Source: Cymodocea nodosa
Taxonomy: Eukaryota > Streptophyta > Magnoliopsida > Alismatales > Cymodoceaceae
Direction of reading: 5' to 3'
DNA length: 64,000 nt
Assembly: GCA_036874045.1 (NCBI GenBank)
Contig: CM072335.1
Location: 23,505,501 to 23,569,500, forward strand
Shown: positions 2,716-42,720 of the stretch, in pieces
Position numbering within the stretch: position 1 is the stretch's first letter
Layout of the letters: each line of letters opens with the position of its first letter
Position numbers and translations under genes: made by a program
Notes under the pieces: generated by a model
Told to the model about the DNA's origin: nothing
The model's input: the letters and a program-made list of their open reading frames with translations, nothing else
The model's database searches: none

Positions 2716-5700
2716 CTAAATCAAGTAAGATGACATGAGATTCCAACTGATTTTCATGTGGGAAGGCATTGGCGCCACAAGGTGTAGGAGGTCTGGTTTG
2801 TTTCCAAGTTCTGGTTCGCCTGAGCTGCTGAAAAACTTGGCTACGTTGGGGAGCACAATCTCCCTACAGTGGAGATGGAGCAGAGGAACCTTGGACAGGA
2901 CACTTCCCTTCTGGACTGGTAAGCGTTCTGGCCTACGTAGCCTGTAGGGTTCTCCAGAAAATGGCTCGTAATCTACGTGAGGCATCTGTGCCCATCTTCG
3001 GTGCACGTGCCACCCATATTTGTAGTCCCCGACGATAGGAGTACCTAATGCCTCTGCACAATGTACTCGAAGCTGCAACAATCATTTTACAAAGATAAAT
3101 GGTTAAATTAGGTGTTCGATGATAGGATGCGTAAGTACTTGATGTAATATAAGTAGCACAATCATGGCTCAAATGGAAATACAGGCCAGTTTATCTAGAG
3201 ACGCCTTTAAAAGACTTCTCTAGATGTTCTTGTATTTTCTCATAAATGCATAAGAACATAGAAACAATTGTAGGAATTAATTTATTAGATGACAAGAGAC
3301 AATAATCTGATGAAAATATAACACAACATAGAAGTATAGTTACAAGGGCAAGAAATCAGTAGTAGTAGGATCTGAATTACAAATTGCATACAACTTTTTA
3401 TAGACCTCCAGCTTAGGAATGACTTGTTCAAAGGCCATGTACAACCCTAGAATGCATATTTTACCATCCTTGCATCCAGTAGGAGGAGATGTGGATTTCA
3501 TAATACTGTATGTTTTAGAACCTTGGCGACACCATGCGAGAGAAGATTGGCATCAACTAATGAAAATGAATTGATCTATATCAAATGCATCTTGTGAAAG
3601 CCTATAATAGTGCAAAGCTTCCACAAACTAGAACATCTTGTACGTAGAAAACATATGTAAAAACAATACTAGTCCCGCACCATTAGTGTACGTGTCTGCT
3701 TTAAAGGATACCTGATGCTTGCAACCAGTGAGAGGACGAAGCTCAACCCAAGAGCATCCGTTTATAGTAGGCCCCATTACTCTATATTCGGTAACAGCTT
3801 TTTGAGAACCATCTATGCCCGACTGATGAGCTAATACAACCATTTCTGTTTTCCCTTCATTGAGAAAAACCTAAAACAGAGAGACAATTCATGGAAATTG
3901 GATTATATCAGGTGACGGGTGTTTAAGAAAGCATGGCATGAATATAAATTTTGAATACTCCACACAACCACTAGACTCTTCAGCCTTGCCTTTTTTGGGG
4001 TGTGGGGTTGAACAGGGATGGGATACCTTTGAAAGTGGGGCAGATATAACACCTTCTCTTTCTTTAGGAGAGCCTATAACCAACGCCCAGTATTGCTGAG
4101 AAGTTGCCTCACAAGCTTCATTCCAAGCCTAGAGATTTGTCAGTCCACTAGCAAATTAAATTTGCTAATAATAAAAAAAGGCAACTAGAAAGGTTATTTA
4201 CTATTTCAAAAAGAGGTATGCAAAAGTTCTGCAAAACTGTTCCCTCTCACTACAACAAATTAAGATTTTGTTTTCAAAACGAGATTGTTTTGCTTTTAAG
4301 ACCCATAGAAAGTCCTTTTAGATCAACATTTCTTTATGCTTGACATCCACAAAGAGAAGAGGAAAAAAGTACACAAAAATGTAATCTCAGAAAAAGGATG
4401 TTGGAAGCTACCTTTTCTGTTTCAAGTTTTGTTTCCGTAAAAACTCCAATTTATAATTTATCCTTCAGTCTTTGAATGCATTGTACTAGTAAAAAAATTT
4501 GCCTAAAGTAAGACAGCTTCGAAGCTTGTTCATAACTTTCCTAGTTTTGTAAAGGTAAATGACAACAGAAAACTAAATGAAGAAGCACACGTTCAAAAAT
4601 TATTTTGATACTTAGGCATCATGTTGCCTTTGTTTCAATATGAATAGCTGTCCATGCTGCTACAGCATGATCCTCTCTGCAAAAGAATATCTAGAATTTA
4701 ATAAATTTAATAAAGTTGCTAATTGCTACAACCAGACACGTCAAAGTCTTTGGCATAAACATGCACATAAACCATCTAACATGACAAATTTAAGTAAGTT
4801 TTATCGTGGGATCTTACACCACATGTCAGCATGTGAATGGGTTTCCATCCATGCTTTGCCACCAAAAGGCTATTGCAGACGGAACCTAAATTAAACAGAT
4901 TTCATCAATTTGAGTTCTTCAAAAACCTACGGGCACCCTGACATAGGTATGGAAGAGTAGAAACGTATTATTTATGACTGACAAATAGAACAGAACTAAT
5001 TAGTTTATGTAAAAATGACTTGAGTATATAATATATATACTATTTCTGGAAGGAATAAATGGACCAGCATTTATTGGCTGACGTTTCAGGTTTTCAGCAC
5101 TTTAGTGAAGTTGGCTGGAAATAAAAGGACTGTTACAGTTTAGGAATTTAAGTGGCTGGAAATAAAAGGATTGTTACAATTCAAGAATTTAAGAGGCTAA
5201 AAATAAAAGGATTGTTACAACATTAATTGGAAATAAATTTTCAATTAGTGTAGCCTTCTTCCATTGCCCATATAAGGGGAGGCAATTTAGGAGCTAAAGA
5301 GAGCAGATTCATGCCCTCCTTACAGTTCTGTCCTGAACTTCCATCATGTTCCAATCAATGTGCCAACTTCTGTAGGAAGTTGTTTCATCTCTGAAGAATT
5401 TTGCTGCTGTTCTGTGGTATCGGATCTCCATTTCTATACAAGAGTTTAACTCTTGATCTGAGCTATACTCTCTCCCAGAAATTAGTAAAACTACCTGCCC
5501 TGCTTATGGATATAGCCCTTTTGGGTGAACCACGTAAAATTGTTTGTGTTGTGGCTTGATCTTCTACTTTATTTTCTTGCTAATCCAATCTCCAAAATTT
5601 TTAACAATTTACAAGTATTTATCAGTTTGGTTCTTAATTTCTAGAACCATTAAAAATATGGTTTAGCTGAACTAAACACACACACATGTATGTGTAAAAG

Positions 5701-8700
5701 TTCATTTGCATTTCTTAAAGATTGGCCTAGTACATTGAATCTTAATCCAACGGTTACCCACAAAACAATCTATATGCCACTAGCGACTGTCACTTGAAAG
5801 TAAGAAATTTCAAATTTCTTTTAAAATTTCATTTAGATATGCTAATTAATTGATGTAGTCTCACTTGGTTTCCTAAAATAATTATATTTCTATTTTAAAA
5901 TTACATGTCATAATATTTAATTCTTATGTACTTTATTTTTCTAAAGAAATTTGAAATAATTTTTTTGCATTTTATAATTTATGGTGATTTTTGTTGCAAA
6001 CAAATCTATACACAAACACACAAAGAGAGTTTAACAAACATTACTACACATAAAACATTAAATCATAAAACAAATTGATTTCAACCATTAATGACATGAG
6101 TGGAAGAATCATAGGGACTATTTGACAAAGTGGAGAGAATGTTTGTTGACAATCAGAAGAGACATGAAGATTCAAGGTGCAGTTCTTTTACTTGTTTGTT
6201 CCCATTGGAGATCTACTACTTTGGAGGGTTGTGAGGAGGGGTGACAGCTTGATTCCAACCTTTGCAAAGGATGTGAAGCATCCTTTCTAGTGGAAAAAAA
6301 ACATCTAAGATAAGGAGAACTCCAAAGACTAAATTGGTGAGAAGATCAATCTTGTTTATGTGTTTTTTCTTCATTTTGTGTTTTTTTCTTGATGTATGTA
6401 AAGACTAACGAATTTTCATTAGTTATAATGTTATTTTTATTTTTATTTGAATGTGTGAATAATCTCCTTTTGTGATTTATGATTTTATAGTGTTTATATT
6501 GTGAATAGGTGCAAATAGTTGTGAATGACTTGTACAGATTTCTGTCTCTTCTGTTTTTAGAATTAGGGTTTATATGCTTTGTTCGTATCTCGAGTTTTTC
6601 TTACTGTTTTTCATCGATTCTTAAGTCATTTTTGTAGAAAAATAAAAGACGATTCTTACTGCTGTAAACTTTATGGAAAGTCATTCTATCAATTTTTCTT
6701 AGTAGTAAAACGAGTCTTCGTTCAAAGTCCTTTGATTTGGCAAGATTTCATGAAGTTTTGACTGAATTACGATTTTTACACCAAATGTGCGATTTTGGAA
6801 AATTTCTAGAACGGTTCTGCGCCCTTTTAGTAAATCTATTATTTCTAGAATTCTATAATGAGTTAGTCTACGAAATTATTTCCATTTCAAAGAAAACTCG
6901 AGGATCTTTCCAACCAATATTTTATCTAGATTTTTGAATATCCAGGCTGGAGGAAAAGAGAGTTAGAAATTAAGTTTCATTTTTGTGATTTCAAGGCCAA
7001 AACTCATTAATTTGCTTAGGGTTAACCTTAGGAACTTATTGGATTTTGGACGGTATTTGAACTTTTCATTGTATTTATGTAATTTTTACCTATTAAGCTG
7101 TAATTAGAGTTTTACTTATGACTATAATGATATGAATGTTTTGCTAAACAATTATTTTTATGAATTCAACTAAGACAAGCTTCTTGTAGATCGACCTGTT
7201 CTTGCATATGCTTAATACAATAGGTACCGTATACTTGCGGTTTATAAATGTAAAATTTAAGTTTTTCGTGTATTTAATTGAATAACAACAAATTGCCTTA
7301 CAAGTTTTTGGCACCGTTGCCAAGGAGCTTAGTGTGCTAAAATGAAATTTTTGGATTTGGGTTTAGTTCTGCATTTCTTTGTTTTAAGGTTTTCATTAAG
7401 TCCTTGTTTTTGTAGATCTTACTTATCTTGAAAATGTGGGGTGATATGTCAAATGGCCATTTTATATGTTTATTTCACATTTAAAAAAAAAATGTTTTTC
7501 TCCCATTTTGTCACATGTATGTACTTGAAATTCAAACGGTGGCAAACTATAGATGATTCTATGATTATCTTGAATGGCCTAAAATTTTAGTAAGAAAACA
7601 GAATGCGCAGTCTGTTCTTCTTAAAATATGCTATTGTTAAAGATTTGAGATGATTTTTCCTGAAAAGTTTGGTTTTAGATGTTTCTTTTAAGTTCTTGCA
7701 CATAAAATTTGGAGATATTGTTTAATAGATCAAATTCATTAAAGCCATACCATATTATGAGTTCTCTATTTTACTGTTGCATTATTTAATCTGTAATAGT
7801 CTTAAATCTGCTATCATTATAACACCTAGAAGTTTATTTTGTGCCCATATTGTGAAACTACATGATTTTACCTTTCTGAAATGAGCTTTCATGTTTGATT
7901 TGAATATGTGTAGTTCAAGTTATAAGTTTTCTAAGATAATGGTGTTTGGATGAATTTTTGTTAAAAAATTGTATTGAAAATCTAAGTTCAGATTTAAATT
8001 ACTACAATTTTGGAATAGAAAATTTTTCTTTATTACTTGCATGTTAAAGTATGATGAATCAGTTTTCCAACATATGTTTAAAAGTAAATTTTGAATGTCT
8101 AAATCTTAAGTTATGATCTATTGAAGTTGGAGTGGTAAAATTGAATTCTGCATTGTAAGAAGTTGCAAAACTACATGACATATCTTCATGAATGCTTATC
8201 TTTGTTAACATGTTAAGTGCTAAATCATGTTGGAAATTACCTAAATTTTTTTTTTTAAAAAGTACTGTCATGTGTTGAATTTTCTATTACAAGTTCTAAA
8301 TGTGGTTCATGGAATCAATGAATGCACCTTGTTTTAATTAAAATTGATATACCATTGGGTTCTTAGTATGCTCAATCTACCATCATAGCATTATACTTCT
8401 TTTTTTTTCACCACATAGACTCAAAATTATGTGAGCATTTAGAAAATATGACAGATGAAAATTTCACTCTTGAATTGAATATTTGAAAAAGTAGAAGAAA
8501 TATATAAACATGTTGTTGAGTAATTTCAAGCATTTATGTGTAATTGAGATTTCACTATATAAGTATGTTGTTTTTGGGGTGATGGACAATCATTTTATTG
8601 CAACTACAAGTTAACCTTTGCATGGGAATTTCTACATTTTGAATTAAATGTTAAAAGTACTTTAGTTTTATCTTGCAAATAGATTATGTGACTTTCTTTT

Positions 8701-11700
8701 TCTTATACACTTATTGTGTAGAAAGAAGATATCTTACTTTTTAAAATGAGATAAAGCAGGTATGAGAGAAGAAGAAACACAAGCTTGTTAAATTTTACCT
8801 ACAGGTGCTTACCTTGACAACAAACAAATGATAGGAATGTAGCTTTAAAATTTTGAAGTATTCAAGCAATTGTTCCACCACCACATGTTTCTTTTCATTT
8901 TATTCTCATTTCTTTTTGTTAATTTAGTATGTTAGTTTTCTTTTGCTTTTGAATGTAGTATGTTCCCTAGTTTTAGTAGAATTTTATTTCCTTGTGTTTT
9001 AAGTGACTTAGGCTCATACCCCTATCTTATGGTATATTTAATTATCAGGTATATTGTATATCCTTTTGTATTAAGAGATATAATGAGAAGGTTGTGAGGT
9101 GACTTAGTTTACTTAAATCATTCATCTTAATGTATTATCTTTAATTATTGTTTAAATTAAAAATAATGAATAATAATAAATGTTGAAGAGAACATTAATG
9201 CCATTTTCAAAGTCATTATTTCAGCATTACCAAGTTTTTGCATATAGTTGTATATTCTTCACCACCATGTGAACTTATTGCAATATTTAAGTGTGGGGGT
9301 GCAAGCTTCTTGTATTTGTGTAAACTTCTTGATGCATGCTTACTTTTATATCTAGAGTAAAATTTTCATAACATTTAACTACTTACCTGTTATGATCAAG
9401 GATAATGAATATGAGATTTAATATTTTTCTGAGTTATACACACCTTATATTTTAATATGGAACTTGAATTTTTTTACTTGGATGTGTATGAATTTTTTTT
9501 TTAAAAAAAAAACAATTGCAAGGGTTGTCATTTGCATATATTTTTAATTTGAAAGTTTGTGTTCCTTTCACTTAAGTTTTATTTTCTTTCATTTTTATTA
9601 TATTAATGAGGCTAGTGGTGAAGTTCAACTTTGTTTTTGAATGTATTATTAATGTATAATATTTATGACCTAAGCTTTGTGATATGACTTTCATAAGTTT
9701 TTTTGTGTGCTATTGCTCAAATAGGCATGTTCATACATTCATGTGGTCATTTATTATGATGCATAAGTTAAACTTATATTTGCTACGAACTCACCATTAA
9801 AAAAAAAAAAAAATTCTCTTTGTTTCTATATTAATTGTTCTTTTCTATTATTTAGTATATATAGATTTTCCTCTATTAGATATATCTCACGTGTTTGTTA
9901 GTGTTTTAGTTTTTTTTGTGGTGTGACAAGAAAGGTACACATTTTTAAATCTCCTTCTATTATATTGCATATGAGTTAAAATTGCAGTACACATCATTCT
10001 TTTGAATATGATACTTAATCTCTATTTCATGTTCTTGAGGATGATACATTTTCTACTATCTACATGTGTTTCACACATTAAGGGAGCTACAATTTACTAC
10101 TTGCCATTATTCTTTCTTTCTTTATATTTCTTTTTATCCTCTACATGCATAACATTGCCATGCTTGAATGCTATCTTTAGATTCACTGAGGACAATACAT
10201 CATTTAAGTGTGGGGGTTTGGCATGTAAATTGTTTTTGTTATTTTTACTATATTTTCATGTATTTTTCGTGATGTTAGTAAATTTTCATGTGTTATATGT
10301 TGTATTTTGATTAAACCTTAGTGATGAGATTTTGAAACTCAAGAAATGCTATTAGGATTTATAGGTTTACCCCTGATTTCTTTTTGAGTAGACTCCAAAA
10401 CCTAAAAGTGTGGACCTAATTATATGTTCTTTAGAGAAAGATGAGTCCCATGTTAGTAGTGTTTTAAGTGAGTCTTCTTTATCATTGGGATTAATGTCTT
10501 GTTTATTTACACTCTTTTGAGTGATCCCAAGCTGAGTGCCACTACAAAGAGGTTTACATCTTATGTAACCTTAAAGTGAAATTATTTTTTGGATACTCCC
10601 AAACTTCTATGAGATTTTGAAGGAGAGGTTTAGGAAAACATCAAAGTTATCACATATAGCATGCTAAGGAGTTTCTTGGGATGGATTTAAGTCTTAGAGG
10701 AATAAGGTATTTTCTATACCATTTGTTGAAAAATAAATAAATAAATAAGAGAAAAAAAAAATTTGAAAAGAAGAAGAAGAAAAGCTATAAAAGAAAAAAA
10801 AAACAAAGAGAATAAAAATAAGAGCTTTCAATATAGAAAAGTAGGGCTTGGAGCCAATTGAGATATGATGAAGTAATGGACTTTCTCGAGTGTTTAGCTT
10901 TCCCTTTATTTTCTTGAGTGTGGGTTGATTAGCACGCTATATTGTTGATACTTTGGTTGTTTATTCTATATATTTTTTCAACTTATCTCGTTGGAAGAGA
11001 GGGAGCTCTAGCACTAGTCTACACTTTAATTTGTTATTGATTATATTTGAGTACTTAGTTTCCTATGATTAGTAAGGGTGAGTTTTCTTTTGTATCAAGG
11101 TAGATGGTCTTTTTGATGGGGTGACTCCTCATGCATTCTAATGTGGGCTTGTTGGATTCTAAAGAACTAATGAGTTTTCTTTTCTATTAAGCAACCATTG
11201 TGTCTATTGACCTTAATAGCATCATTGAGCCTAATCATTTCTTACTTGGGTCAAATCTTTGTTTTTGTTATTTGCTTATGTTTTGTATTTGTAATGTTCT
11301 TTTCTTATTTGTGTTTGTTTTATTTTTATGTTGATTTGGACTTTGTGGGTATATCTGTTGAAAACCCTCTGGAGACAAAACTTCGCCACTAGGATGACTT
11401 AGGGGTTTAATGACTTGTTGCATATGCTAAATGCAACCGTGATTCCTACAAAAGTAAGTTAGGATTTCTATTTTAGTTGTTTTTATTTGTGTTTTTAATA
11501 TGAACTTTTAATTACTTGTCATACTAGTCATTTCCTATTTTTCTAGACTTGAATATTTACTAGGGACAAGCAAAGTTTCAGTGTGGAGGTATTTGTGAGT
11601 AAAATTATGTTAATTTATATAAGATTATTCATGCTTATTAGAGCTTAAATGATACATAATGCATGTTTATAATTGAAATACCATCACTTTGGCATTTATA

Positions 11701-14700
11701 TGATTATGCATGATTATTGAAGTAAATGACTTAAAATTGTATAATTTAACTCTTTATTTGATTATGACTTAAATGATAATGGAAATGAATGTTGATTAAT
11801 ACTTAGATGTTTTATGTTATTTCATGTTTTGTTATCTTTTAATGTGTTTGTTTAAGTTTAGTAGGTAAATAAAAGGGATCCTATTGGATGTTCGCAAGGG
11901 CATTTAAATGAAAATAAAAGAGAGATTAAAGGGTAACTTTGGAAGATGACAAAAACCCACAACTCTCCTTTACTTAAGCTCGTCCAAGGGATATCCAAGC
12001 CTCATCTTTGAAGACCCAATTGAAGACCGATACCCCTCTCCTCCTCTTTCCTTCTTAGGGCAAGTGGTAGGCTCCTCCTTGTGGTTGGAGTAAAAGAGGA
12101 AGCTTGGGAAACTTAGATCCAAAGGGTTGTCTTCCTTGTTCTTCTTTCGGTGCACTTGGAGGCCATTGACCTATCCCCTTCTTGTTCTTGGCTTGAATGG
12201 CTGAAGTGAAAAGCTTAAAGACCCTTCCAACAATGTGACTTCTGATTCTAAAGGAGTGGTGACAACATTTTTTAGAGAAGAATAAGTAAAATCCACGCAA
12301 GTGAAGAAGATTCAAGGTGCAATTCCTTTGCTTGCTTGTTCCCATTGAAGATTCACTTCTTTGGAGGGTTGTGAGGAGGGGTGATAGCCTGATTCCAACC
12401 TTTGCAAAGGATGTCAAGCATCCTCTTTAGTGGAAAAAGAGCATCTAAGATAAGGAGAACTCCAAAGACTAAATTGGTGAAAAGATCAATCTTGTTTATA
12501 TGTGTTTTGTTCTTCATTTTATATTTTTTCTTGATGTATGTAAAGACTAACGAATTTTCAGTAGTTATAATGTTATTTTTACTTTTATTTGAATGTGTGA
12601 ATGATCCCCTTTCGTGATTTAAGATTTTATAATGTTTATATTGTGAATAGGTGCAAATAGTTGTGAATGGTTTGTACAGATTTTCATCTTCTCTATTTTC
12701 AGAATTAGGGTTTATATGCTTTATTCATATCTCGAGTTTTTTCACTGTTTTTCATCGATTCTTAAGTCATTTTTGTAGAGAAATAAAAGACGATTCTTTT
12801 TGTATACTTTGTTTAATTTTTTGAGCACGTTTGGTGTGATTTTTTTATTTTTTTAGAAGAGTGTATTCTTGGTTCGGAATTGCATTTTTGGCCAGTAGAT
12901 TTGCAGAAATGTTTAATACGATTTCTCCCTCTATATACTATATTTGTAAGATCTGTAAATTGGGTTTATTAGGTTGATGAGTCTATTTTCATTCAACGGT
13001 GATTTCATAGAATTCCATGAAGAATTGATAAAGTTGTCAAGATTTTACTAGAAGTGCGAATTCTGTAATATTTTAATACTGTTTTGCGCACCTCACTAGG
13101 TTTTGATGTTATTTTCAACTGAGAACGATTTAAAGTGTAAAATTTTGTGTATATTTAGATAACTTAAAACCCTTCCCAGTGAATATTTTTGTATGATTTT
13201 TCAATCTTTATTTTGGGAAAAATCGTTATTACAAGTAGTACTATTTTTTGTGATTTCGACGAACAAGTTTGGAAGGAATAGATTTTTATAGTTCTAGATT
13301 CTGTGCAAATAGAATCCTTGCCTTCCGTTTCTCCTTTCAAAGAGTAGGTTTTCCGAAGAATTTTTTAGTGTTTCTTGATATGATTTTGTTGGAAATTTTG
13401 TGTAGATTATAGTTATGTAAGTTTTGTAATTTTTAGAAATGTATTTCTTTGGTTTTTGATTTTTTCTTCCAGAGGTTGTAGCAGTTTTGGATTTCTGTTT
13501 GAGTACCAGATTTGGTGTTCGACGCCTGAGTGTTGTCTGTGTTGTAAACTTTATGGAATGTCGTTTTATCAATTTTCCTTAGTAGTAATACGAGTCTTCG
13601 TTCAAAGCCCTCTGATTTTGTATGATTTCATAGAGTTTTGACTGAGTTACGATTTTTACACCGAAGGTGCGATTTTGGAAAATTTTCAGAATGATTCTGC
13701 GCTCTTTTAGTAAATCCAATATTTCTTGAGTTCTATAATGAGTTAGTCTACGAAATTACTTCTATTTCAAAGATAACTCAAGAATCTTTCCAACCAATAT
13801 TTTATTTGGATTTTTGAATATCCAGGTTGGAGGAAAAGAGAGTTAGAAGTTGGACCTCATTTTTGTGATTTCAAGGCCAAAACTTATTAATTTGCCTAGG
13901 GTTAATCTTAAGAACTTATTGGATTTTAGGTAGTCTTTGAGTTCTTCATTATATTATGTAATTTTTACCTAGTAATCTATAATTAGAGTTTTATTTATGA
14001 CTATAATGATGTGAATGTTTTGCTAAACAATTATTTCTATGAATTCAATTAAGATAAGTTCCTTGTGGATCAACTCACTCTTATATATGCTTAATATAAT
14101 AGGTATCGTGCGCTTGCAGTACCTAATGTATTAAGCATATGCAAGAAACTTGTAAGACAATTTGTTGTTATTCAATTAAATACATGAAAAATTTAAATTT
14201 TACATTTATAAACCGCAAGCGCATGGTACCTATTGTATTAAGCATATACAAGAGCAGGTCGATCCACAAGGAGCTTGTTTTAATTGAATTCATGAAAATA
14301 ATTGTTTAGCAAAACATTCACATCATTATATTCATAAATAAAACTCTAATTACAGATTAATAGGTAAAAATTACATAAATATAATGAAGAGTTCAAATAC
14401 CGCCTAAAATTTAATAAGTTACTAAAGTTAACCCTAAGCAAATTAATGAGTTTCGGCCCTGAAATCATAGAAATGAAGTCCAACTTCTAACTCTCTTTTC
14501 CTCCAACCTAGACATTCAAAAATCCAGATAAAATATTGATTGGAAAAATCCTCGAGTTATCTTTGAAATGGAAATAATTTCATAGACTAACTTATTATAG
14601 AACTCTAGAAATATTGAATTTACTAAAAGGACGTAGAACCGTTCTGGAAATTTTCCAAAATCGCATGTTTGGTGTAAAAATCGTAACTCAATTAAAATTT

Positions 14701-17700
14701 CATGAAATCCTGTGAAATCAAAAAACTTTGAACGAAGACTCGTATTACTATTAAGGAAATTTGATAAAACGACATTTCATAAAGTTTACAGCATAGGCAA
14801 CACTCAGGCATCGAACATTAAATCTGGTACTCAAACAGAAATTCAAAACTACTGCAACCTTTGGAAGAAAAAATCAAAAACCAAAGAAATAAAAATTTCC
14901 AACAAAATCATATCAAGAAACACAAAAAAACTCTTCAGAAAACCTACTTTTTGAAAGTAGAAACGGAAGGCAAGGATTCTGTTTGCACAGAATCCAGAAT
15001 TACAAAAATCTATTCCTTCCAAACTTATTCGTCGAAATCACAGAAAATAACTCTACTTGTAACAACGATTTCTCCCAAAATAAAGACTGAAAAATCATAC
15101 AAAAATATTCACTGGGAAGGGTTTTAAGTTATCTAAACATACATGGTGATTTTACACTTTAAATCGTTCTTAGTTGAAAATAACATCAAAACTTAGTGAG
15201 ATGCGCAAAATAGTATTAAAATATTATAGAACGCGCACTTCCAGTAAAATCTCGACAACTTTATCAATTTTTCATGAAATTCTATGAAATCACCGTTAAA
15301 TGAAAATAGACTCATCAATCTAATAAACCCAATTTACAGATTTTAAAAATATATTGTATAGAGGGAGAAATCATATTAGACATTTCTGTAAATCTACTGA
15401 TCGAAAATCCGATTTCGAATTGAGAATACACTCTCCTAAAAAAATAGAAAAATCACACCAAACGTGCTCAAAAAATTAAACAAAGTATACAAAAAGAATC
15501 GTCTTTTATTTCTCTACAAAAATAACTTAAGAATCGATGAAAAATAGTAAGAAAAACTCAAGATACGAACAAAATATATAAACCTTAATTCTAAAAACAG
15601 AGGAGACAGAAATCTGTACAAGTCATTCACAACTAATTGCACCCATTCACAATATAAACACTATAAAATCATAAATCACGAAAGGAGATCATTCACATAT
15701 TCAAATACAAGTAAAAATAACATTATAACTACTGAAAATTCATTAGTCTTTACATACATCAAGAAAAAAACACAAAATGAAGAAAAAACACATATAAACA
15801 AGATTGATCTTCTCACCAATTTAGTCTTTGGAGTTCTCCTTATCTTGGATACTCTTTTTCCACTAGAGAGAATGATTCACGTCCTTTGCAAAGGCTAAAA
15901 TCAGGCTGTCACCCCTCCTTATAACTCTCCAAAAAAGTAGATCTCCAATGGAAACAAGCAAGCAAAGGAACCGCAACTTGAATCTTCTTCATCCACGTAG
16001 ATTTTACTCCTCCAAAGAATGTTGTCACCACTCCTTTAGAATCAGGAGCTACATTGTTGGAAGAGTTTTTAAGCTTTTCCCTTCAGTCGTCTAAGTCGAA
16101 AGTAAGATGGGGATAGGTCAATAACCTCAAAGTGCGTCGAAAGAAGAACAAGGGAGGCAGCCCTTTAGATCTAAACTTCCTCTTTTACTACAACCACAAG
16201 GAGGAGCCTACCATTTGCAATAGGAAGGAAGGAGGAGGAGAGGGGCATCAATCTTCAATTGGGTCTTCAAAGATGAAGCTTGGATATCCTTTAGACGAGC
16301 TTAAATAGAGGAGAGTTGTGGGTTTTTGTCACCTTCCAAAGTTACCTTTTAATCCCTCTTTTATTTTCATTTAAATGCCTTTGTGAACATCCAATAGGCT
16401 TCCCTTTATTTACCTACTAAACTTAAACAAACACATTAAAAGATAACAAAACATGAAATAACATAAAGCATCTAAGTATTAATCAACATTCATTTTCATT
16501 ATCATTTAAGTCATAATCAAATAAAAGGTTAAATTGTGCAATTTTAAGTCATTTACTTCGATAATCATGCATAATCATATAAATGCTAAAGTGAAGGTAT
16601 TTCAATTATAAACATGTATTATGTATCATTTAAGCTCTAATAAGCATGAATAATCCTATATAAATTAGCATAATTTTACTACTTACAAATACCTCCACAC
16701 TCAAACCTTGCTAGTCCTTAGCAAATATTCAAGTCTAGAAAAATAGGAAATGACTAGTATGACAAGTAATTAAAAGTTCATATTAAAAACACAAATCAAA
16801 ACAACTAAAATAGAAATCCTAACTCACTTTCGTAGGAATGACGGTTGCATTTAGCATATGCAACAAGCCATTAAACCCCTAAGTCACCTTAGTAGCAGAG
16901 TTTTGTCTCTGGAGGGTTTTCAGCGGATATACCCACAAAATCCAAATCAACATAAAAATAAAACAAACACAAATAAGAAAAGAACATTACAAATACAAAA
17001 CATAAGCAAATAACAAAAATACAGATTTGACCCAAGTAAGAAATGATTAGGCTCAATGATGCTATTAAGGTCAATAGGCACAATGGTTGCTTAGTAGATA
17101 AGAAAACTTACTAGTTCTTTAGAGTCCAACAAGCCCACATTAGAATGAGTGAGGAGTCACCTCATCAAAAGGACTATCTACCTTGATAAAAAGAAAACTC
17201 ACCCTCACTAGTCATAGGAAACTAAACACTTAATTATAATCAATAACAAATAAAAGTGTAGACTAGTGCTAGAGCTCCCTCTCTTCCAACGAGACAAGTT
17301 GAAAAAATGTCTAGAATAAACAACCAAAGTATCAACAACATAGCGTGTTAATCAACCCACACTCAAGAAAATAAAGGGAAAATTAAACACTCGAGAAAAT
17401 CTACTACTTCCTCACATCTCAATTGACTTCAAGCCCTCCTTTTCTATATTAAAAGCTCTTATTTTTCTTCTCTTTGTTTTTTTTTTTATAGCTTTTATTC
17501 TTCTTTTTTCAACTTTTTTTTTTTCACATCATTTTTTTTTTCTCATATTGTTTCTTTTTTTTTTCAACAAATAATGTAGAAAATACCTTATTCCTCCAAG
17601 ACTTAAATCCATCCCAAGAAACTCCTTAGTACGCTATATGTGATAACTTTGATATTTTCCTAAACCTCTTCTTCAAAATCTCATAAAAGTTTGGGAGTAT

Positions 17701-20700
17701 CCAAAAAAAATAATTTCACCTTAAGGCTACATAAGATGTAAACCTTTTTATAGTAGCACTCAACTTGGGATCACTCAAAAGAGTGTAAATAAACAAGACA
17801 TTAATCCCAATGATAAATAAGACTCACTCAAAACACTACGAACATGGGACTCATCTTTCTCTAAAGAACATATAATTAGGTCCATGCTTTTAGGTTTTGG
17901 AGTCTACTCAAAAAGAAATCAGCGGTAAACCTATAAATCCTAATAGCATTTCTTGAGTTTCAAAATCTCATCACTAGAGTCTAATCAAAATACAACATAA
18001 AATGATAACAACATAAAACACATGAAAATTTACTAACATCACGAAAAATATATGAAAACATAGTAAAAATAACAAAAACAATTTACATGCCAACCCCCCA
18101 CACTTAAATGATGCATTGTCCTCAGTGAATCTAATATAACATTCAAGCATGGCAATGTTATGCATGTAGAGGATAAAAAGAAATATAAAGAAAGAAAGAA
18201 CAATGGCAAGTAGTAAATTGTAGCTCCCCTAATGTGTGAAACACATGCAAATAGTAGAAAATGTACCATCTTTAAGAACATGAAATGGAGATTGAGTATC
18301 ATGTTCAAAAGAATGATGTGTACTGCAATTTTAACTCACATGCAATATAATAGAAGGAGATTCAAAAATGTGTACCTTTCTTACCACGCCACAAAAAAAA
18401 CTAAAACACTAACAAACACATCAGATACATCTAATAAAGGAAAATCTATATATACTAAATAATAGAAAAGAACAATTAATATAGAAACGAAGAGAATTTT
18501 TTTTTTTTTATGGTGAGTCCGTAGCAAATATAAGTTTAACTTCTGCATCATAGTAATGTACGAACATGCCTATTTGAGCAATAGCACACAAAAACTTATA
18601 AAAGGCATATCACAAAGCTTAGGTCATACATATCATGCATTAATAATACATTCAAAAACAAAGTTGAACTTCACTAGCCTTATTAATATAATAAAAATAA
18701 AAGAAAATAAAACCTAAGTGAAAGGAACACAAACTTTTAAATTAAAAATATATGCAAATGACAACCCCTGCAATTGTTTTTTTTTAAAAAAAAATCATAC
18801 ACATCCAAGTAAAAAAATTCAAGTTCCATATTAAAATATAAGGTATGTATAACTCAGAAAAATATTAAATCTCATATTCATTATCCTTGATCATAACAAG
18901 TAGGTAGTTAAATGTTAGGAAAATTTTGCTTTAGATATAAAAGTAAGCATGCATCGAGAAGTTTACACATAAATACAAGAAGCTTGCACCCCCACACTTA
19001 AATATTGCAATAAGTTCACTTGATGGTGAAGAATATACAACTATATACAAAAACTTAGCAATGCTGAAATAATGACTTTGAAAATGACATTAATGTTCCC
19101 TTCAACATTTATTATTATTCATTATTTTTAATTTAAACAATAATTAAAGATAATACACTAAGATGAATGATTTAAGTAAACTAAGTCACCCCACAAACAA
19201 CATACTTATATAGCGAAATCTCAACTGCACATAAATGTTTGAAATTACTCAACAACATGTTTATATGTTTCTTCTACTTTTTCAAATATTCAATTCAAGA
19301 GTGAAATTGTCGTTTGTCATATTTTCTAAATGCTCACATAATTTTGAGTCTATGTGGCGAAAAAAAAAAATATAATGCTATGATGGTAGATTGAGCATAC
19401 CAAGAACCCAATGGTATATCAATTTTAATTAAAACAAGGTGCATTCATTGATTCCATGAACTACATTTAGAACTTGTAATAGAAAATTCAACACATGACA
19501 TAGTACTTTTAAAAAAAAAAAATTTGAGTAATTTCCAACATGATTTAGCACTTAACATGTTAACAAAGATAAGCATTCATGAAGATATGTCATGTAGTTT
19601 TGCAACTTCTTACAATGCAGAATTCAATTTTACCACTCCAACTTCAATAGATCATAACTTAAGATTTAGACATTCAAAATTTACTTTTAAACATGTGTTG
19701 GAAAACTGATTCATCATACTTTAACATGCAAGTAATAAAGAAAATTTTTCTATTCCAAAATTGTAGTAATTTAAATCTGAACTTAGATTTTCAATACAAT
19801 TTTCTAACAAAAATTCATCCAAACACCATTATCTTAGAAAACTTATAACTTGAACTACACATATTCAAATCAAACATGAAAGCTCATTTCAGAAAGGTAA
19901 AATCATGTAGTTTCACAATATAGGCACAAAATAAACTTCTAGGTGTTATAATGATAGCAGATTTAAGACTATTACAGATTAAATAATGCAACAGTAAAAT
20001 AGAGAACTCATAATATGGTCTGGCTTTAATGAATTTGATCTATTAAACAATATCTCCAAATTTTATGTGTAAGCACTTAAAAGAAACATCTAAAACCAAA
20101 CTTTTCAGGAAAAATCATCTCAAATCTTGAACAATAGCATATTTTAAGAAGAACAAACTGTGCATTCTGTTTTCTTACTAAAATTTTAGGTCATTCAAGA
20201 TAATCATAGAATCATCTATAGTTTGCCACCATTTGAATTTCAAGTACATACATGTGACAAAATGGGAGAAAAACATTTTTTTTTTGAATGTGAAATAAAC
20301 ATATCAAATGGCCATTTGACATATCACCCCACATTTTCAAGATAAGTAGGATCTACAAAAACAAGGACTTAATGAAAACCTTAAAACAAAGAAATGCAGA
20401 ACTAAACCCAAATCCAAAAATTTCATTTTAGCACACCAAGCTCCCCAGCATGAAAGAGTAAGCTTTACAAACATCAAAGAATAGATCCTTTAGTGAGATG
20501 CCTTGAATGGCAACAAAGAAAGGATTGTGGAGTACAAGGGCTGTAGAGCAAGAAAAGATGGATCTAAGAAAATCTTCCACCAATATGCTAAACCCAATGC
20601 ACAAAGCTTCCACCAATACGCAGTTCAGAATCGGAAAGGTCCAATCATATGCAGTCTTACCTCTGTAAACGAAGATGATGTTTTCTAGGATTCAAACTCA

Positions 20701-23700
20701 GGGAACTCTAGGCCATAATGGAATAATCTTAGGTAGCGTTTGTTTAAAATAGGTTGTGGATTCTTTCACTGTACATTCCAATGTGCAGCCACTTCTGCAA
20801 TCCAACACTGGTGCTCTTTGTTGGAGAAATGTACAGTAACTGTCATTTGTTACCATAGACAACAAAAAAAAGATGAAGTAGATGGAAGTTGGAACTCAAT
20901 AGGAACTGCATTTTTTAAGGTAAAAAATGCATGATTGTCCTAACATTGCATCTCTTCGATCTTGTCACCAAACATCAATCCTCTAACAGCAATGCTCTTC
21001 TATGATGTGCTAGACTGGTGTGATTCAACATGGAGTGTGCACAGTGGCCACTTTGGCTCCCACATATGGTAGTTGAACTTTAAACAAATGGGACCCTATT
21101 ATTGTGCAAGGCTCATCCTTTGCTCCTGTGATATCTCAAAAAGGGTTTAACTTGCATAGACTTTAACTTGCTTCTAAAAATATATTGTACAATCATAGAG
21201 ATGGTTTGAGAGGAGGAGAGAGGAGGAAGAAGTAGCACGCTTTAAAGAATTTATTTTAACATATTCAGGTTTAAGGTGAGCTTTAGCCTTCACCATCTAG
21301 GGCTTGTAGAAACACCCATTCATGAATGTTTGTTGAACTACCAAAAATAGTTAGCAGAATCAGATATCACTTCACCATCACTACAAATATCACACAGATG
21401 AATACCTTAGAGGAAGTTTTTGCCAGGTTTATATTACCGAACAACCAGTGAAGGTGAGCAAAACTATCTTTAGAGCGAGCCATCAACAGTAAGCCACTAC
21501 TCTCTCTATCCAGCTTATGGACCTAAATGAACAAGCAGACCATGATTAAAAAAAATATCGAACTTTAGCCAATTGTAGTGAACAAGCAGAACATGGTTAA
21601 AGACAAGCCATCAAATTTTAGCCAATTGTAGTGGTAGATGAGGTGTTTGTATTCATCACTAACCGAGAAAACCATATTACTTTTTTGTACAATCATGTAA
21701 AATGTTTTTGTTGAGCAGTAACAAGTAAGATATATTAAAACCAAGAAAACAAGGGCCTGCAAAAGCCACGGGCAGTGTAAGAAAAACAAAATACTAATGT
21801 TTTTCAACACCAAAAATAAGGAAACAAGAGATGCTAGAACTGAATAGTAAACAATTGAGAGTTTTTCAACACTTTGCACAATCAAAAGGAAAGATTCTTG
21901 AAACATACTAGCTTAGGTCCCTCTCCACTGCCATGTGATAGTGCTGCTGCAGCTAAGGCATCCATGCTGTTATGAACTGGTAAATTTCCCTAGAAGCATT
22001 TTTTGAATAGTGAGTTTCCCTAAAAGAATAAAAAAGGAAAATAATCAAGAATATAACTGTTAGCATGAACAAATGATTCAGGGAATGACACAACAGTCAC
22101 TCTAACACATTATGTACCCCTTACTCTCCTCACTCTCAATAAATGGTAATATAAAGTCTCTTACCTTCACTGGCAGCTTTGGGGGCTTATTTAGAACAAT
22201 TATGGCAGGATCCTAGTTTCCATAAATGAACAGTACTATGAATACATATAACAAATGCTAGTTCAAACAAAGCACAATTGAATCGCAAACTCAAGGAGAG
22301 GCATACCTTGTAAACTACAAGCCTTCGCAAATAATCTATTTCATCTGCATTTGGATGTAAAGTTGCACTTGGAATAGTGTCATATCTTTTGGAGACCTTG
22401 CTTTCTGCAATCGATACTGAGACATATAACCTAAGTCCAGGCACCATGGGCTCATAATGTCTAACCTATGACAAACAAGTTGAGACATGGTTAAAATACC
22501 AATCGATCAATTGAAAAGAATAAAAACAACTTGTGCAATAAATACATCTATTTCACGGGATTCATTGGCTGGTAATGCTTAAAGAGAAAATTATAAACAA
22601 ATTTATCTAATATGGAATGGGAGTAGTGTCAATTGAGGACAAGATGAGAAAAAACATGACCGTAGACCCATAGGTGTAAAAGGAGTAAAAGAACACCAAA
22701 TTTACATGCTTAGAAATAGTGATAAAAAAGATCCAAAATTATATAATCACACATAGAACATAATAACAAATAGAAATAAACAAAGACTAAGAATTCATGT
22801 TGTCAACCACATATAGTGGTGTTAGGGCATTGATTGTTATTTATGAATATTGACATTGAAATATGACAAGTATACAGCTCAAAAACTGGTGAATTGAAGA
22901 ATTGTTTCATTTCCTGTTGTTGATTTACTGAGATTCCTTTGAACTGTAAGATACAAAAAAACATTTAAAGAATAATATAATACCGCTCTCATGTATGACA
23001 TCCATTGTTGCTTTGCCACAAATTCAACACCATCACGAAAGCATTCAACTTTGACCTGTGCAGATAACAATGTGGATGTGAATTGAAATGTGCCATAACA
23101 ATAAATACAAGGAGATACAATCTGATAATAAAAAAGTATGTAGGTATAAGGCCAAGCTTCAATCATGTGTTAATTTCATTGCGTGGAATGGCACCATTAA
23201 TCCTTTCTATCAATTTGCTTCTATCAAAAAGGTTCTCCCTTTAAACGGTATATAATACATACATAGCTTAGATGTATCAAAAATCTTCTTTTTTTATAGT
23301 GAGCATCAAAAGTACATATAAAGTGGAAGAAAAGACTTAGATCATGTAATTTAACTAAAGATTTGACCATAAATAGAAATAGATAGAAGAAAAGAATTTA
23401 TGTGGCCAACCTCATCTAATAGGACTATAGCTCAGATTATTATTATTGTTGTTATTGCTATCAAAGTACATACACAACTGATCTGTAACAAGGATCTTAA
23501 GATTATAGTATGTGAAATTTGTGCAAGATGCATTGCTCCTGTCTCTCCAAATAAATAGATCCTTCATTCAGACTTTTCCATTACTAATTGAAATCCTAAT
23601 TGCAAAGGGTAGATGCTTCTGTTACTTGAATAATCACCAAATATGTAATGTGTTAGTGTTTGAGAATATGAAGACTCTCAACTTTTACATAAATCTAGCG

Positions 23701-25183: not shown

Positions 25184-28100
25184 ATGGTGCGGCGATCGGG
25201 GTCGCTTCAGAGGAAGGCGGAGGATGTTCTGGTTGATGATTCGTGCGGATTTGCAGGGATGATGGTGGTGCCCAAGGAGCTCGACGCGATCGAGGAGAGC
25301 CGTCGTAGCCAGTTCGAGCTCCGGTTTCGGGTCCCCCATATTAGGCAAACTGTTAAAGTCAGTGTTTTTCCCATAGTGCTCACCTTCTACTAGCTTTCCT
25401 TTCTTGATTCGTATTATTATTGCCTTTTTTAAAGATTGTTGAGTTTAGTTCTAGGATATTTTTGTGCACGGTTTTAGCTGTTTTTGTTTATTCAAGGTCC
25501 ACGTATGGCTCTAGAAGAAGGTAACGACTAATGCATGATCAAGTGAACGTATACATTAGCCAGCAGGCCTAATAATATGCGTACATGTGTGGTTACAACG
25601 GGTATATTTCACTTCAACGAAATACCAGCAAATTGTATCCATTTGATTCTTGAAATGGCATACTTGCCGTTCTGCTACTTGTTCTTTTTCTTGGTTATTT
25701 GACTGCACAAAATCATTATCATCTTGGTATAACTAACTTTTAGCTGGTAAATAACTTCGACAATCGTATTTCAAACAGAAAATCACAGCGAGGAGAGAAG
25801 CTTGTGAGTTCCTCAGTGCGGCATTGGCCGGTGCCATGGCCAAAGCTGTCCTGGCTCCACTCGAGACAATTAGGTTCCCTTTTCAATCATCCTTCTCTAC
25901 AACTTAGCTTTTATTATTCTTTTTAGTTTTATGCTTTGACAATGTATTCCTTTCTTACTTCCAGTATTCCATGCAACTTAGCTTTTATTTTTCTTTTAAG
26001 TTTTATGCTTTGACAATGTATTCCTTTCTTACTTCCAGTATTCCATGCAACTATTGAAATATGTAATGCCTTTTACCAACAACAACAATCTGAGCTATAA
26101 TTACATTACATGGGGTCAACAACATGAATCCTTTTCTTTAAGTATTTCTATCTATTATTAAATATTTAGTTAAATTGTATAAATTTAAACATTTTCTTAC
26201 AATTCCTAACCAAGATGTTTTAAGCTTACCTATACTTTTAATTTCTTCTATAAATTACATAAATTTAAATATTTTCTTGCAATTCCTAACCAAGATGTTT
26301 TAAGTCTACCTCTACTTTTAATTTCTTCTATACTAACTAATTCTTTTCTACTAACTGGTACATTACTTAGTCTCCTAAAGATATGACTGAACCACTTAAA
26401 CCAATTTTCTCTTATTTTATCATCAATAAGTGCAATTCCTACTCTATTTCTAATAAAATCATTTTTAATCTTATTTCTTATTGTATTAGCATTCATCCAT
26501 CTAAGCATACACATTCTAAAAACATTAATTTTTTTGCATATGCTCTTACTTTAGTGCCCAACATTCTAAGTTATAAAGTATAGCTAAGCACATAATAGTT
26601 TATAGAATTTTTCTTTTAATTTTAAAGATATCCTCCTATCATAAAACACTTCAAAAGCATTTCTTCACTTCACCCAACCTACTTTAATCTTATGAATAAC
26701 ATTCTTTATAAATTCGCTATTACCACTTATTGTAGATCCTAAGTATTTGAGAGTCTTACTTTATAGATTTCCTGACCATCTAGGCATATAATTTCATCGT
26801 TATTGTTAGCTTTATTAAACTGGCATTCCATATGTTCAGTTTTTGACCTACCCAATCTAAATCCTTTGGAATCTAAAGTATCTCTTTATAATTTTAATTT
26901 AGAACTAATTCTTTACTTTCATTAACTAAAATTATGTCATCAATAAATAGCATACATCAAATTACTTCTCTTTGAATTTCTTTGAGTATTTCATTTATAA
27001 CCAAGATGAACAAATATGAGCTACTTTGTTATACATGTCATTTATATTATCAATATATTTTATTAGTTCTTTTCTTTCTAAAACTCATCACAATAAGTTT
27101 CTAGGTACTTTATTATAAGTTTTTTCTAAATCAATGAAAATCATATGGGGGCCCTTTTTCTTAATTCTAAAATTTTCTACTAGTCTAAATAAATAAATAA
27201 TTTCCATTGTAGACCTACTTAACATAAATCCAAATTGATTTTTTGTGATTTATTTATATATCTTAGACTTTGCTCAATGACCCTTTCCATATATTATGGT
27301 ATGACTCATTAACTTAATACCACAGTAGTTATTACAATTTTGTATATCCCCCTTATTCTTAAATATAGGTATTAAAGAACTTTTACTCCATTCATCTGAC
27401 ATCTTCTTTATCTTTAAAATTATATTAAAAAGTTTAGTTAATCATTTAATTCCTACTTTATCTATACACTTTCATGCTTCAATATGAATACCATCTATTC
27501 CAATGGTTTCTTGTAAGAACAATATATTAATTTTTCTTATTATCATTATATCCACTACTTTTGTACTCTTACCAATCAAGGTTTCTATATTCAAAGTTAC
27601 TAGCCTAATTATTGTGTTTTGAACTAACTTTTTTATCCACGCCCATTCATTAAGATGTAAGAACCCTTATTTTCATCTACATTCAAGTTTCAATGCAAAT
27701 TTCCTTACTTAAGAACATTGCATCTATGGTGTGCAACCTCTCTTGTTTTTTTTCTCATTGCAATCAAGTCTAGTATAATGTGTCACAAAGAGGGTTGCTC
27801 TTCATAAGATTATCTTTTGGATTCATGTTTATGAGGAGTTACAAATTTTTATAGTTGACCATCTACCTAATGCTAACACTCCTTTATCTAGGCTTGCAAT
27901 TGGCTATGAAGGGGCATATTGCCCCTTACCATACCCAGAATATCATCAAATCATTAGATTTCTGAAAAATAATGCTTTCAAGTGTTATTTCTGGTGAACA
28001 ACTGAATATTTGACAATACACATGTTGGCTCAAAAAATAAGTCCTTTTTTGCATTTTCTGATTGAAACCTTTTGATCGTGAGGTTATACTGCCCCTTGAT

Positions 28101-37015: not shown

Positions 37016-39514
37016 TCAAACAGTAAGTGTGGTGCTTGTTTCGTCAATATCATGAAGGAATCTCCAATAATCAACCAATTTGTGATCAACTGGAGTTATG
37101 TCCCTCCAATAACCAGAACAGAAGATGGCATATGCATCAGCTGCATACCTAGAAGTAGAAGAGAGATATAATCAATAAAAAAGGTATAGGATCTCACTAA
37201 TTAGAAAAATATAACAATTAATATTGTAACAGGAAGTTGAATAACTGTACTGAACAGATAGGAACAGAAAATCAAACTTGCAGGTAATAAACTCACTTTC
37301 CAACACCATGTAGTTGTGTCACATAGGTCCAATCCCCTAAGTATTCCTTGGAGAGTCGTATTATGCCAACTGATCGCTTTTTTTGTAAGCCAAGATGTCT
37401 GATTTTATTTTCAATCAACACACCAGGAATGTCAATTGTTGCTTCTGCTGACGGACATAATGAAAAAAATTCGTGTATGATCTTCTCAGTCTGCACCAAT
37501 CATCACGAAGGTAATTTATGCATCAAAACGACATAGGCTTTTATCTTCTTTCAATAATAATACATCAACAGCCACAAAGTCTAGGAAGACAAGAAAATAT
37601 TTTATTGTCATATTGATGTAATGGACGAATTATTCACACCAATGACAAAATGACATAGGCTTTTTTATCTTCTTTCAATAATAATACATCGACAGCCACA
37701 AAGTCTAGGAAGGCAAGAAAATATTTTATTGTCATATTGATGTAATGGACGAATGTTTCACACCAATGATACATTGGTCTTCAAACTAATCAGAGTCAAA
37801 TAAAAAAAACAAGCAATTTCCTTTTGGGGTACAATCAAATTACTCAAAGGGTATAGCTCCATTGGTGAGGGTGTCTTGAAACGACAGTATGGTTACTCCA
37901 TCATGACTTTGAAGTCACAAGTTCAAATACCAAGAAATAGCCTCCCTATTTGAGGCAATGTCATGTAAAATTGCATCCTTTTTAATAACATCATTTGTCT
38001 TGCCAATCATTGCTTGTAAACATATTGTCTACTCATTTTCCACACATAGATTATATTTGATTTGTTTCTAATTATTACTTGTGCCACATAGATTGCATGA
38101 TTTCCTATGTTTTTGTCACTTGTTATTTTAATCAAAAGCTAATCATGCATAAGCTGTTCAATTTTCTCAATAGAATAACATGGGCATCGGTCCACTTGAT
38201 GGATACGAAGGATGCCAATAAAGTGAGCATGAGTATGAGGGTGGTTTAGTTGAGAAGATATCATGATGTGGCCTTTATAAAATGGGCCAAATGATTTCTT
38301 TAACTGCTTGTGAATAGAGTCTTAGCAATATTGTTTGAACTTATGGGCCTGACTAGATGCCTTAAATATAGCCATCTACTTCAGTTGGTGAGTAAAGATA
38401 AGCAAACAATGGAGAAAATGTTGTGAAAAAGACAATCCCAAGAAAACCTTGAAGTGAAGTAATTGGTCAATACATACACCTAATTGGGAAACTAATTTAC
38501 TTAAGTATTATTCATCTAGATAATTCACATGTAACTGATCTTCTCAGTTCAGGCATGAGCCTAAGATGGTCTACCGGTAAGAAACCTTCCATGTATTGGC
38601 CTAAATTAAAAGTACCTTAAGGTAAAGGACGTGTCTACAGGAACAAAATGAACCACGATATAATAGTTACGATCATGATCGATGAAACTATGATAAGAAG
38701 CAAAGGAGACGAAGAGAAGAATAGGATTGAGAAAGGGGACCTGTGAACCGCGGGTCCTGTTGCAAAGAGCGCATATGACAAGCACCTTCCACGGATCATG
38801 GTAGTAATGTTCTTGAATCAGCCCATATGGAGAGGAAGGCGGCACCCACGGGTGGTCGTCTGGAACACGCCTGTACGGCTCAGACCATCGTTGCTTAGAA
38901 GTCAAAAAATCCAGCTTCTCCCTCTTCCTCTTCTTCCTAATATTACCACCGTCCTCCACTTTCTTCTCATTCTTCCTCTTCTTGTTCTGTTTCTTCTTCT
39001 TCCTCTCCGCATTCTTCTTCTTACCACCTTTTCTGCCTCTCTCACTCACAATTCCTTTTCTGCTTTTCTTGTTGGTAGCGGTCGTGCTAAGTGGTGGCGT
39101 GCACGGGCATGATGGAGGAGATGCCGTACATGGGTTGAAGCGAAACTGGGAGAATAAGTGGTCATCAGAATCGCGCGCTGAGATGTGTAGATGATACTCT
39201 TTTCCTCCGGAACCGACCAATCCCTCCTTCTTCCTCTTCTTCACACGATTACCTTCTTCGACCTCGTTTTCCTTCCTCTTGCCCTGCTTCTTCTTCCTCT
39301 TCCTATTCTTTTTGTCATTTTTGTTGCCTCTTTCGATCATCCTTCCTTTTCTGCTCCTTCTGTTGGTAGCGACCGCGTTGCAGGGTGTCGACCATGGGTG
39401 TGATGGAGGAGATGTCGAGGTCGGGTTGTAGCGGAACCGGGAGAAGAGGCGTTCGACGGAATCGGACGTAGAGACTTGCAGATAATCTTTTCCTCCGGGA
39501 GACGAACGCACCAT
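37016..39514 (-). CDS. MBD4L: MBD4-like DNA glycosylase with duplicated basic N-terminus
   Basis: A base-excision-repair glycosylase of the HhH-GPD superfamily, predicted nuclear, removing uracil/thymine from mismatches. Exons on the minus strand: 39514-38741, 37490-37297, 37148-37016. They join in frame to 366 aa. The C-terminal glycosylase domain (about 225-366) has SPYGLIQEHYYHDPWKVLVI, CNRTRG, the helix-hairpin-helix LHGVGKYAADAYAIFC (318-333) and PVDHKLVDYW. Asp344 aligns with the catalytic Asp of vertebrate MBD4 (PEDHKL). As in plant MBD4-like proteins there is no methyl-CpG-binding domain. The N-terminal 200 residues hold two copies of a module (7-99 and 103-201), each with FSxFRxNP, an SPPS-Pro segment, SRKG and a long Lys/Arg tract, likely nuclear-targeting and DNA-affine. 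Exon 1 uses an unusual CAG|GTCCCC donor. The ATG at 39514 is the first in frame. Intron 1 carries a 122-bp tandem duplication and a SINE-like sequence. Confidence 0.92.
37530..37769 (+). repeat. 122-bp tandem duplication in MBD4L intron 1
   Basis: GACATAGGCTTTT starts at 37530 and 37652. The two copies agree through CACAAAGTCTAGGAAG and GATGTAATGGACGAAT to CACACCAATGA, with a handful of single-base and short indel differences. Confidence 0.9.
37849..37985 (+). mobile_element. tRNA-derived SINE-like sequence
   Basis: TATAGCTCCATTGGTGAGGG resembles a pol III A box. AAGTTCAAATACC, 66 bases later, resembles a B box. They are followed by a short non-tRNA body (CCTCCCTATTTGAGGCAATG) and a T-rich end. 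That order and spacing fit plant tRNA-derived SINEs. No target-site duplication was established. Confidence 0.45.
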
Positions 39515-41949: not shown

Positions 41950-42720
41950 TAAAGCCTGGTCGTATGTAAGTTACATGTGCAATATACTGTAATTAAATTA
42001 TATTTTTTAATTAGATTATAAAATTTGATTTTTTATAAGTTTTAGAATTTGATTATAATAAATTAAGTTCTTTGAAGCATCACCTTAACTAACTAAATCT
42101 GAGTTTAAATGTTAAATTTAATTTTTTATATCATTTTACTATTACTTTATATTTGATTACCAAACATTATAATTTGATTATGCAGCGTAATTTAATTTAG
42201 CCTGATTTAACTTGTAATGTAATTTAATTGAATTACATTTCCTAATTAGATCGCGATATTTGAGTTTTTGTTATTATAAGTTTTGAACTTTGATTATAAG
42301 AAATTAAATACTTTGACCCAACTAAGTAAACAAAAACTGAAATGATAAAATCGACTCTTTGTATAATTTTTTAATTAATTTACATTCGATTACCGAACAA
42401 CATAATTTAATTGCGTAATGCTATTTAATTACATTACATTAAAGCCTTATTTGGTTGGTTGTGTTCATAATGTAATGTAACTAAATTAAACCACAAAATC
42501 GAATTACGATGTCTGACGATCAAATAAAAATTAATTATAAAATCATATAAAGAAGCAGTTTTATCATTTAAACTCGTGCCTTGGTGATTGAGTGGTGTCT
42601 CAAAGAAACCAATTTTTTACAATAAATTTCTAAAGTTTGCAATCATATAAACTCAAATATTATAATCCAATTAGAGAATGTGATTAAATCACATTATATA
42701 CAAATTAAGAGCAAACATAT
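41950..42720. mobile_element. Cluster of three MITE-like copies (two direct, one inverted)
   Basis: A unit of about 245 bp recurs. It has TAATTAGAT, ATAAGTTTT-GAATTTGATTATAA-AAATTAA, CTTTGA, TTTAAATG, TTTGATTACC and TAATTTAATTACATT-type ends. It is seen near 41990-42190 and 42190-42440 on the plus strand, and near 42465-42715 as the reverse complement (AATCATATAAAG to CCAATTAGAGAATGTGATT). Termini are rich in GTAATGTAATTTAATT. Copies are quite diverged and exact borders uncertain. Confidence 0.5.

Follow-up and report, generated by a model that had tools for sequence, protein, structure and literature searches.

In wild-type yeast, intermediates of Ty1 replication are joined at breaks, and 40 of 56 insertions of the 3′ long terminal repeat (LTR) at such breaks carried nucleotides found only in the cDNA (PMC10802722, a preprint). 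Most foldback inversions reported from breaks in yeast measure ≈5–34 bp, and their other junction shows 0–5 bp of microhomology (PMC11724301); Pol-theta joining in Arabidopsis is marked by templated fillers (PMC10923293). Palindromes on a willow sex chromosome are kept alike by gene conversion (PMC7023750), and IBM1 is a gene with intronic heterochromatin (PMC11265718). Here we describe a locus of Cymodocea nodosa that can be compared with each of them: a palindrome of two copies of one LTR retroelement, lying in an intron of an RNA pseudouridylate synthase family gene. It is contained in a stretch of 64,000 nucleotides (assembly GCA_036874045.1, contig CM072335.1, positions 23,505,501 to 23,569,500), hereafter the window, in whose numbering all positions are given.

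We favor, with moderate confidence, the reading that an unintegrated cDNA was captured next to a full-length one and that the outer arms later underwent gene conversion. As in yeast Ty1 capture, replication intermediates would have been joined at a break, leaving 3′ LTR pieces with cDNA-only nucleotides; unlike in yeast (PMC10802722), capture is deduced after the fact, and the captured molecule would be a near-full-length cDNA with one LTR, lying inverted beside a full copy within an intron. The 27-bp templated inverted filler, with ≈2 nt of microhomology on its opposite side, recalls both the yeast foldbacks (PMC11724301) and the Arabidopsis fillers (PMC10923293), but here the filler links two retroelement copies. 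As in the willow palindromes, the arms appear to have been homogenized after duplication, although here there is one intronic retroelement palindrome in which only the outer 2–3 kb look homogenized (PMC7023750). With IBM1-type genes the locus shares an intact gene with a repeat-bearing intron; it differs in that the repeats form an inverted pair, which was not met in the extracted part of the IBM1 account (PMC11265718), and in that it is known from sequence alone. Among the titles and abstract openings listed for the literature on tail-to-tail or palindromic LTR elements, no description was met of a one-LTR arm ending in a primer-binding site (PBS), though one may still be in print.

Two copies of one LTR element in intron 6

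The palindrome (6165–20450) consists of two copies of one LTR element placed tail to tail, as delimited by self-comparison, by its edges and by an alignment of its three LTRs. The left copy, on the plus strand, runs from its 5′ LTR (L1, 6165–7302) through a PBS-like stretch (7309–7326) and the rest of its internal region (7303–12301) to its 3′ LTR (L2, 12302–14120), from which the final ≈62 bp are gone. The right copy, on the minus strand, starts inside the PBS at 20450 and runs through its internal region (15992–20450) to a single LTR (L3, 14151–15991). The left copy's LTRs are direct repeats with a TG start; the CA end is seen only in L1 and L3, since the 3′ end of L2 has been lost. Between L2 and L3 lie a 27-bp filler (14121–14147, minus strand), which is an inverted copy of LTR sequence, and the three bases AGT (14148–14150, minus strand, in element sense), which lie past the LTR end and equal the start of L1's LTR–PBS spacer. 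Five host bases, AGACA (6160–6164), precede L1.

Self-BLAST paired 7324–8582 with 20444–19186 at 97.1% identity, and 9092–19196 with its own reverse complement at 89.1% over 10,246 columns, both arms being counted. In a global alignment of the left arm (7304–14119) with the right arm (20460–14165), 5,750 of 6,203 gap-free columns were identical. Identity by region was 97.3% (7320–8582), 95.2% (9092–10500), 91.5% (10500–12305) and 89.0% (LTRs). Seven indels of at least 8 bp separate the arms: three stretches of 16, 17 and, at the center, 48 bp are missing from the left arm, and four of 520, 13, 9 and 42 bp from the right.

These comparisons, in which an inverted repeat at ≈7.3–20.4 kb and an outer LTR repeat at 6.17–7.31 kb stand out, bear out the original prediction of two inverted copies of one element within an intron, and the arms match throughout ≈6.2 kb (84–99% per bin of 300 columns) and not in short patches only. 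Its claim that the outer edges are nearly base-identical fits 7608–8207, where the bins reach 98–99%, but not the remaining bins (84–96%). Several boundaries have to be redrawn. The insertion begins not at 6150 but with the LTR TG at 6165, and the right arm ends at 20450 instead of 20449; a left arm starting at 7324 leaves out the further LTR at 6165–7302; and the center is no plain spacer but holds the inverted LTR piece at 14121–14147 and ≈64 bp of right-LTR end with no left counterpart.

The PBS-like stretch lies just inside the 5′ LTR and matches 15 of 18 bases of what we take to be the tRNA-Asp complement; one other site in the window reaches 13 of 18. No Pfam domain was found in the 12 six-frame readings of the internal regions, with X at stops (six each from 7330–12305 and 15995–20450), and the reverse transcriptase, ribonuclease H and integrase domains of the Ty3/gypsy Athila/Tat (OTA) lineage were absent from both regions, so the element was not placed there. 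The earlier designation of the element as non-coding and gypsy-type is borne out in its first half for both copies; for the second, the only sign is the PBS match. Long LTRs and a long internal region (≈4.5–5 kb) without coding domains fit the definition of a LARD-type non-autonomous element. A tRNA-Asp-type PBS is shared with the Ty3/gypsy non-chromovirus (OTA) lineage, tRNA-Asp being among the primers named for plant non-chromoviruses (PMC6317226); the present element differs in having no pol domain, so no lineage is assigned.

The sense strand of the element is T-rich and C-poor (≈41% T and 12–13% C in the left internal region and in both LTRs of the left copy), and the strand skew reverses near the center of the palindrome. 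The ratio of observed to expected CpG is 0.14 in the internal region (7320–12305) and 0.7–0.9 in the three LTRs. L1 lacks ≈740 bp at 6659/6660 that are kept in L2 and L3, probably through a later deletion. The 520 bp at 8572–9091 (plus strand), present in the left arm only, have GGTGA at each edge and represent either an inserted segment flanked by a 5-bp duplication or sequence that the right arm lost by a microhomology deletion.

The host gene, on the minus strand, was assembled by choosing exons with an open frame and GT/AG splice signals. Nine phase-0 exons from 24458 to 2716 encode a 477-residue protein of the RNA pseudouridylate synthase family, which contains the RNA pseudouridylate synthase domain (E = 3.5 × 10−22). 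Ten single reading frames compared with Pfam gave two matches that fell short of the curated cut-off, including PseudoU_synth_2 in the exon at 3628–3870. The palindrome lies within intron 6 (4129–21405, minus strand, GT–AG, 17,277 bp), and the flanking exons, described at the outset as open, indeed join in phase across it, with one gene on both sides. Rfam at gathering thresholds gave no match in window positions 1–26000, and ARAGORN gave none over the whole window.

Junctions and a possible route of formation

Beyond the LTR end of an integrated copy, unrelated host bases are expected. Past its end TTACA, L1 continues with AGTTTT and then the PBS. Past the same point, L3 continues with AGTTT, whose last two bases could equally belong to the filler, so that three to five bases match the LTR–PBS spacer. 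At its far end, the right arm stops nine bases into the PBS, and these last nine bases match the presumed tRNA complement at eight positions. A minus-strand cDNA, prior to second-strand transfer, ends past the LTR end on one side and at the PBS on the other. Because both of its ends appear to fall at such termini, the right arm resembles a cDNA of this kind. A longer PBS-derived tail at the center was considered and discarded: the TTGCA found there belongs to the inverted filler, and only AGT(TT) is kept.

In inverted orientation, the filler matches L1 at 26 of 27 positions (7199–7225), L3 at 24 and L2 at 22. One further place in the window agrees with it at 20 positions, and the best of 300 shuffles of the filler reached 19 of 27 within L1. 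An ACC…GGT inverted match stands beside the filler point in L1 and L3 and could have primed a foldback. Self-foldback of L2 is one candidate template of the filler among others.

From these breakpoints we infer the following order of events and repair. A full-length cDNA of the non-coding element would have been inserted into the intron, its 5′ LTR beginning at 6165. Then or shortly before or after, its 3′ LTR end would have been broken, with the loss of ≈62 bp, and the broken end could have folded back on the short inverted match and copied ≈27 nt. A microhomology of ≈2 nt would then have helped to join the filler end to another, inverted cDNA of the same element. This was presumably an unfinished minus-strand product that starts just past the LTR end, on the side of the tRNA primer, stops midway through the PBS, and for that reason carries one LTR. 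Its far end would have been joined to host DNA without a visible target-site duplication; AGACA, found before 6165, is absent directly after 20450, as would follow from repair-mediated joining of the right end. Afterwards, gene conversion may have held the outer 2–3 kb of the arms alike, in a host gene that still reads. If so, the locus would be a natural, germline-captured intermediate of retroelement replication and a one-step route to long inverted repeats able to trigger small interfering RNA (siRNA).

Divergence of the arms and competing explanations

The three LTRs were compared over the 1,073 columns common to all of them. Single differences numbered 50 in L1, 72 in L2 and 57 in L3, and three columns differed in all. 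Kimura two-parameter distances were 0.130 for L1–L2, 0.113 for L1–L3 and 0.138 for L2–L3. The share of singletons in L3 is statistically indistinguishable from one third (p = 0.69). For L3 to have diverged by an extra 1.4% before the copies were joined, P = 0.03, and for an extra 0.9%, P = 0.08. Divergence is about the same in all three LTRs; the arms therefore seem to date from the insertion itself and to have been near-identical at the time of joining, and the simplest reading of the comparison is that all three LTRs were alike at one time. A clearly different source element for the right copy is disfavored because the L3 branch is not the longest. At a plant substitution rate of 1.3 × 10−8 per site per year, the common time of the LTRs would lie, very roughly, 4–5 million years back.

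The identity of the arms falls from the outside inward. With CpG transitions removed, 405 differences in 6,191 columns were unevenly distributed over 20 bins of 300 columns (χ2 = 114, 19 degrees of freedom, p = 1.4 × 10−15). The best break was at left-arm position 10532, with 3.4% difference before it and 8.9% after it, a gain of 40.1 log units compared with at most 8.0 in 200 permutations. On the outer side of 10500 there were 20 transversions among 2,633 columns, compared with 57 among 3,558 on the inner side (p = 0.003). CpG decay does not account for the whole gradient, which persists without CpG transitions and in the transversions pooled at 10500; it explains a part, given the much lower CpG ratio of the internal region than of the LTRs. 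Judged from this pattern, gene conversion of the outer 2–3 kb appears to be the likeliest cause of the likeness of the arms, although a lower mutation rate in the outer arms may be responsible instead. With conversion, the three LTRs of a single event would provide an internal clock for exchange between palindrome arms.

Several observations weigh against capture followed by conversion. Compared with the left copy's decayed PBS, the final nine bases of the right arm agree at six positions only. The LTR end and the spacer are defined from two copies, and AGT, at 3 nt (five with the overlap), could be a chance match. The filler is closer to L1 than to L2, L2 and L3 agree against L1 at two filler sites, and the foldback stem has decayed in the present L2. 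No polypurine tract adjoins the LTR; L2 and L3 are each preceded by purine-rich stretches, but at a distance of over 10 nt. L1 and L2 may have evolved at unequal rates, to judge from their branches (50 and 72 differences, p = 0.057). For transversions alone, the outer bin does not differ from 9092–10499 (p = 0.37). Finally, regional differences between two source elements may mimic conversion.

The alternative that survives best, possible but clearly less probable, is that two elements of one family were inserted independently in opposite orientation and united by deletions, one taking away the L2 end with the intervening host DNA and another the right copy's 5′ LTR. Neighbors in opposite orientation are common in plant genomes, and two insertions from one source during the same burst would also leave three equally diverged LTRs. 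This course requires near-identical source elements, however, and a deletion that happened to stop within the 18-base PBS, and it leaves L3 followed by the LTR–PBS spacer, albeit by 3–5 nt only, instead of by host bases.

We consider it quite unlikely that a single insertion gave rise at a later time to an inverted duplicate, through foldback or break-induced replication from the left copy. An inverted filler of 27 bp is indeed a foldback signature (PMC11724301). A late duplication would make L2 and L3 the closest pair and L1 the longest branch, but L2–L3 is the most distant pair and L1 the shortest branch, and there is no stated reason for copying to stop at the PBS. The LTR comparison disfavors such a duplication as a late event only; at the time of insertion it would still be possible. 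Long inverted repeats are difficult to assemble, but an assembly error, whether a misjoin or a local inversion, is very improbable: a read-level foldback is unlikely as the source because the arms are 3–11% apart by region and carry separate indels, whereas a foldback made in sequencing would leave them nearly identical, and a distant misjoin is disfavored because exons of one gene are ordered and in phase on either side, in a window without any N.

Hairpin potential and other features of the window

In a host-sense transcript of the palindrome, 95.7% of aligned positions would pair, G–U pairs included, with 97 mismatch-free runs of at least 21 nt that span 4,655 nt, the longest being 274 nt. 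The central 1,221 nt had a predicted folding energy of −714 kcal/mol, compared with −211 to −241 kcal/mol for 15 mononucleotide shuffles; two segments from elsewhere in the window gave −235 and −214 kcal/mol. Two outer pieces of 595 nt were predicted to cofold at −943 kcal/mol with 98% of bases paired, compared with −228 kcal/mol for one shuffle. The hairpin potential foreseen in the original prediction is thus strong. A very long duplex, a hairpin of ≈6 kb, is plausible in the host pre-mRNA on the basis of these models. Long, near-complementary arms within one gene, as an inverted-repeat siRNA locus calls for, are present here, and transcription through the intron would presumably carry them into one RNA. 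The intronic hairpin is probably spliced out; otherwise, it would be a possible source of siRNA.

Under any of the origins considered above, the palindrome might be a working silencing locus, whose hairpin is diced to siRNA that methylates the palindrome and other copies of the family, and which has been retained for that reason. The pairing and the central fold would suit such a role, but introns are usually removed and degraded, and the low divergence of the outer arms may come from conversion without selection; we regard this role as doubtful. Less probable still is the whole chain in which a captured minus-strand cDNA made the 14 kb palindrome in one step and a hairpin whose outer edge conversion has kept alike feeds siRNA that silences the element family, an accidental silencing locus derived from the element's own replication intermediate.

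Elsewhere in the window, self-BLAST detected a direct repeat (26251–27244 and 62947–64000, 72–79% identical) with inverted matches near 52.4–52.7 kb, a tandem duplication of ≈122 bp (37524–37769, 94% identical) and a diverged inverted repeat of ≈500 bp (42207–42708, 67%). An open frame of 577 amino acids on the minus strand (43056–44789) gives a glycosyltransferase-like impression, judging from its residues.

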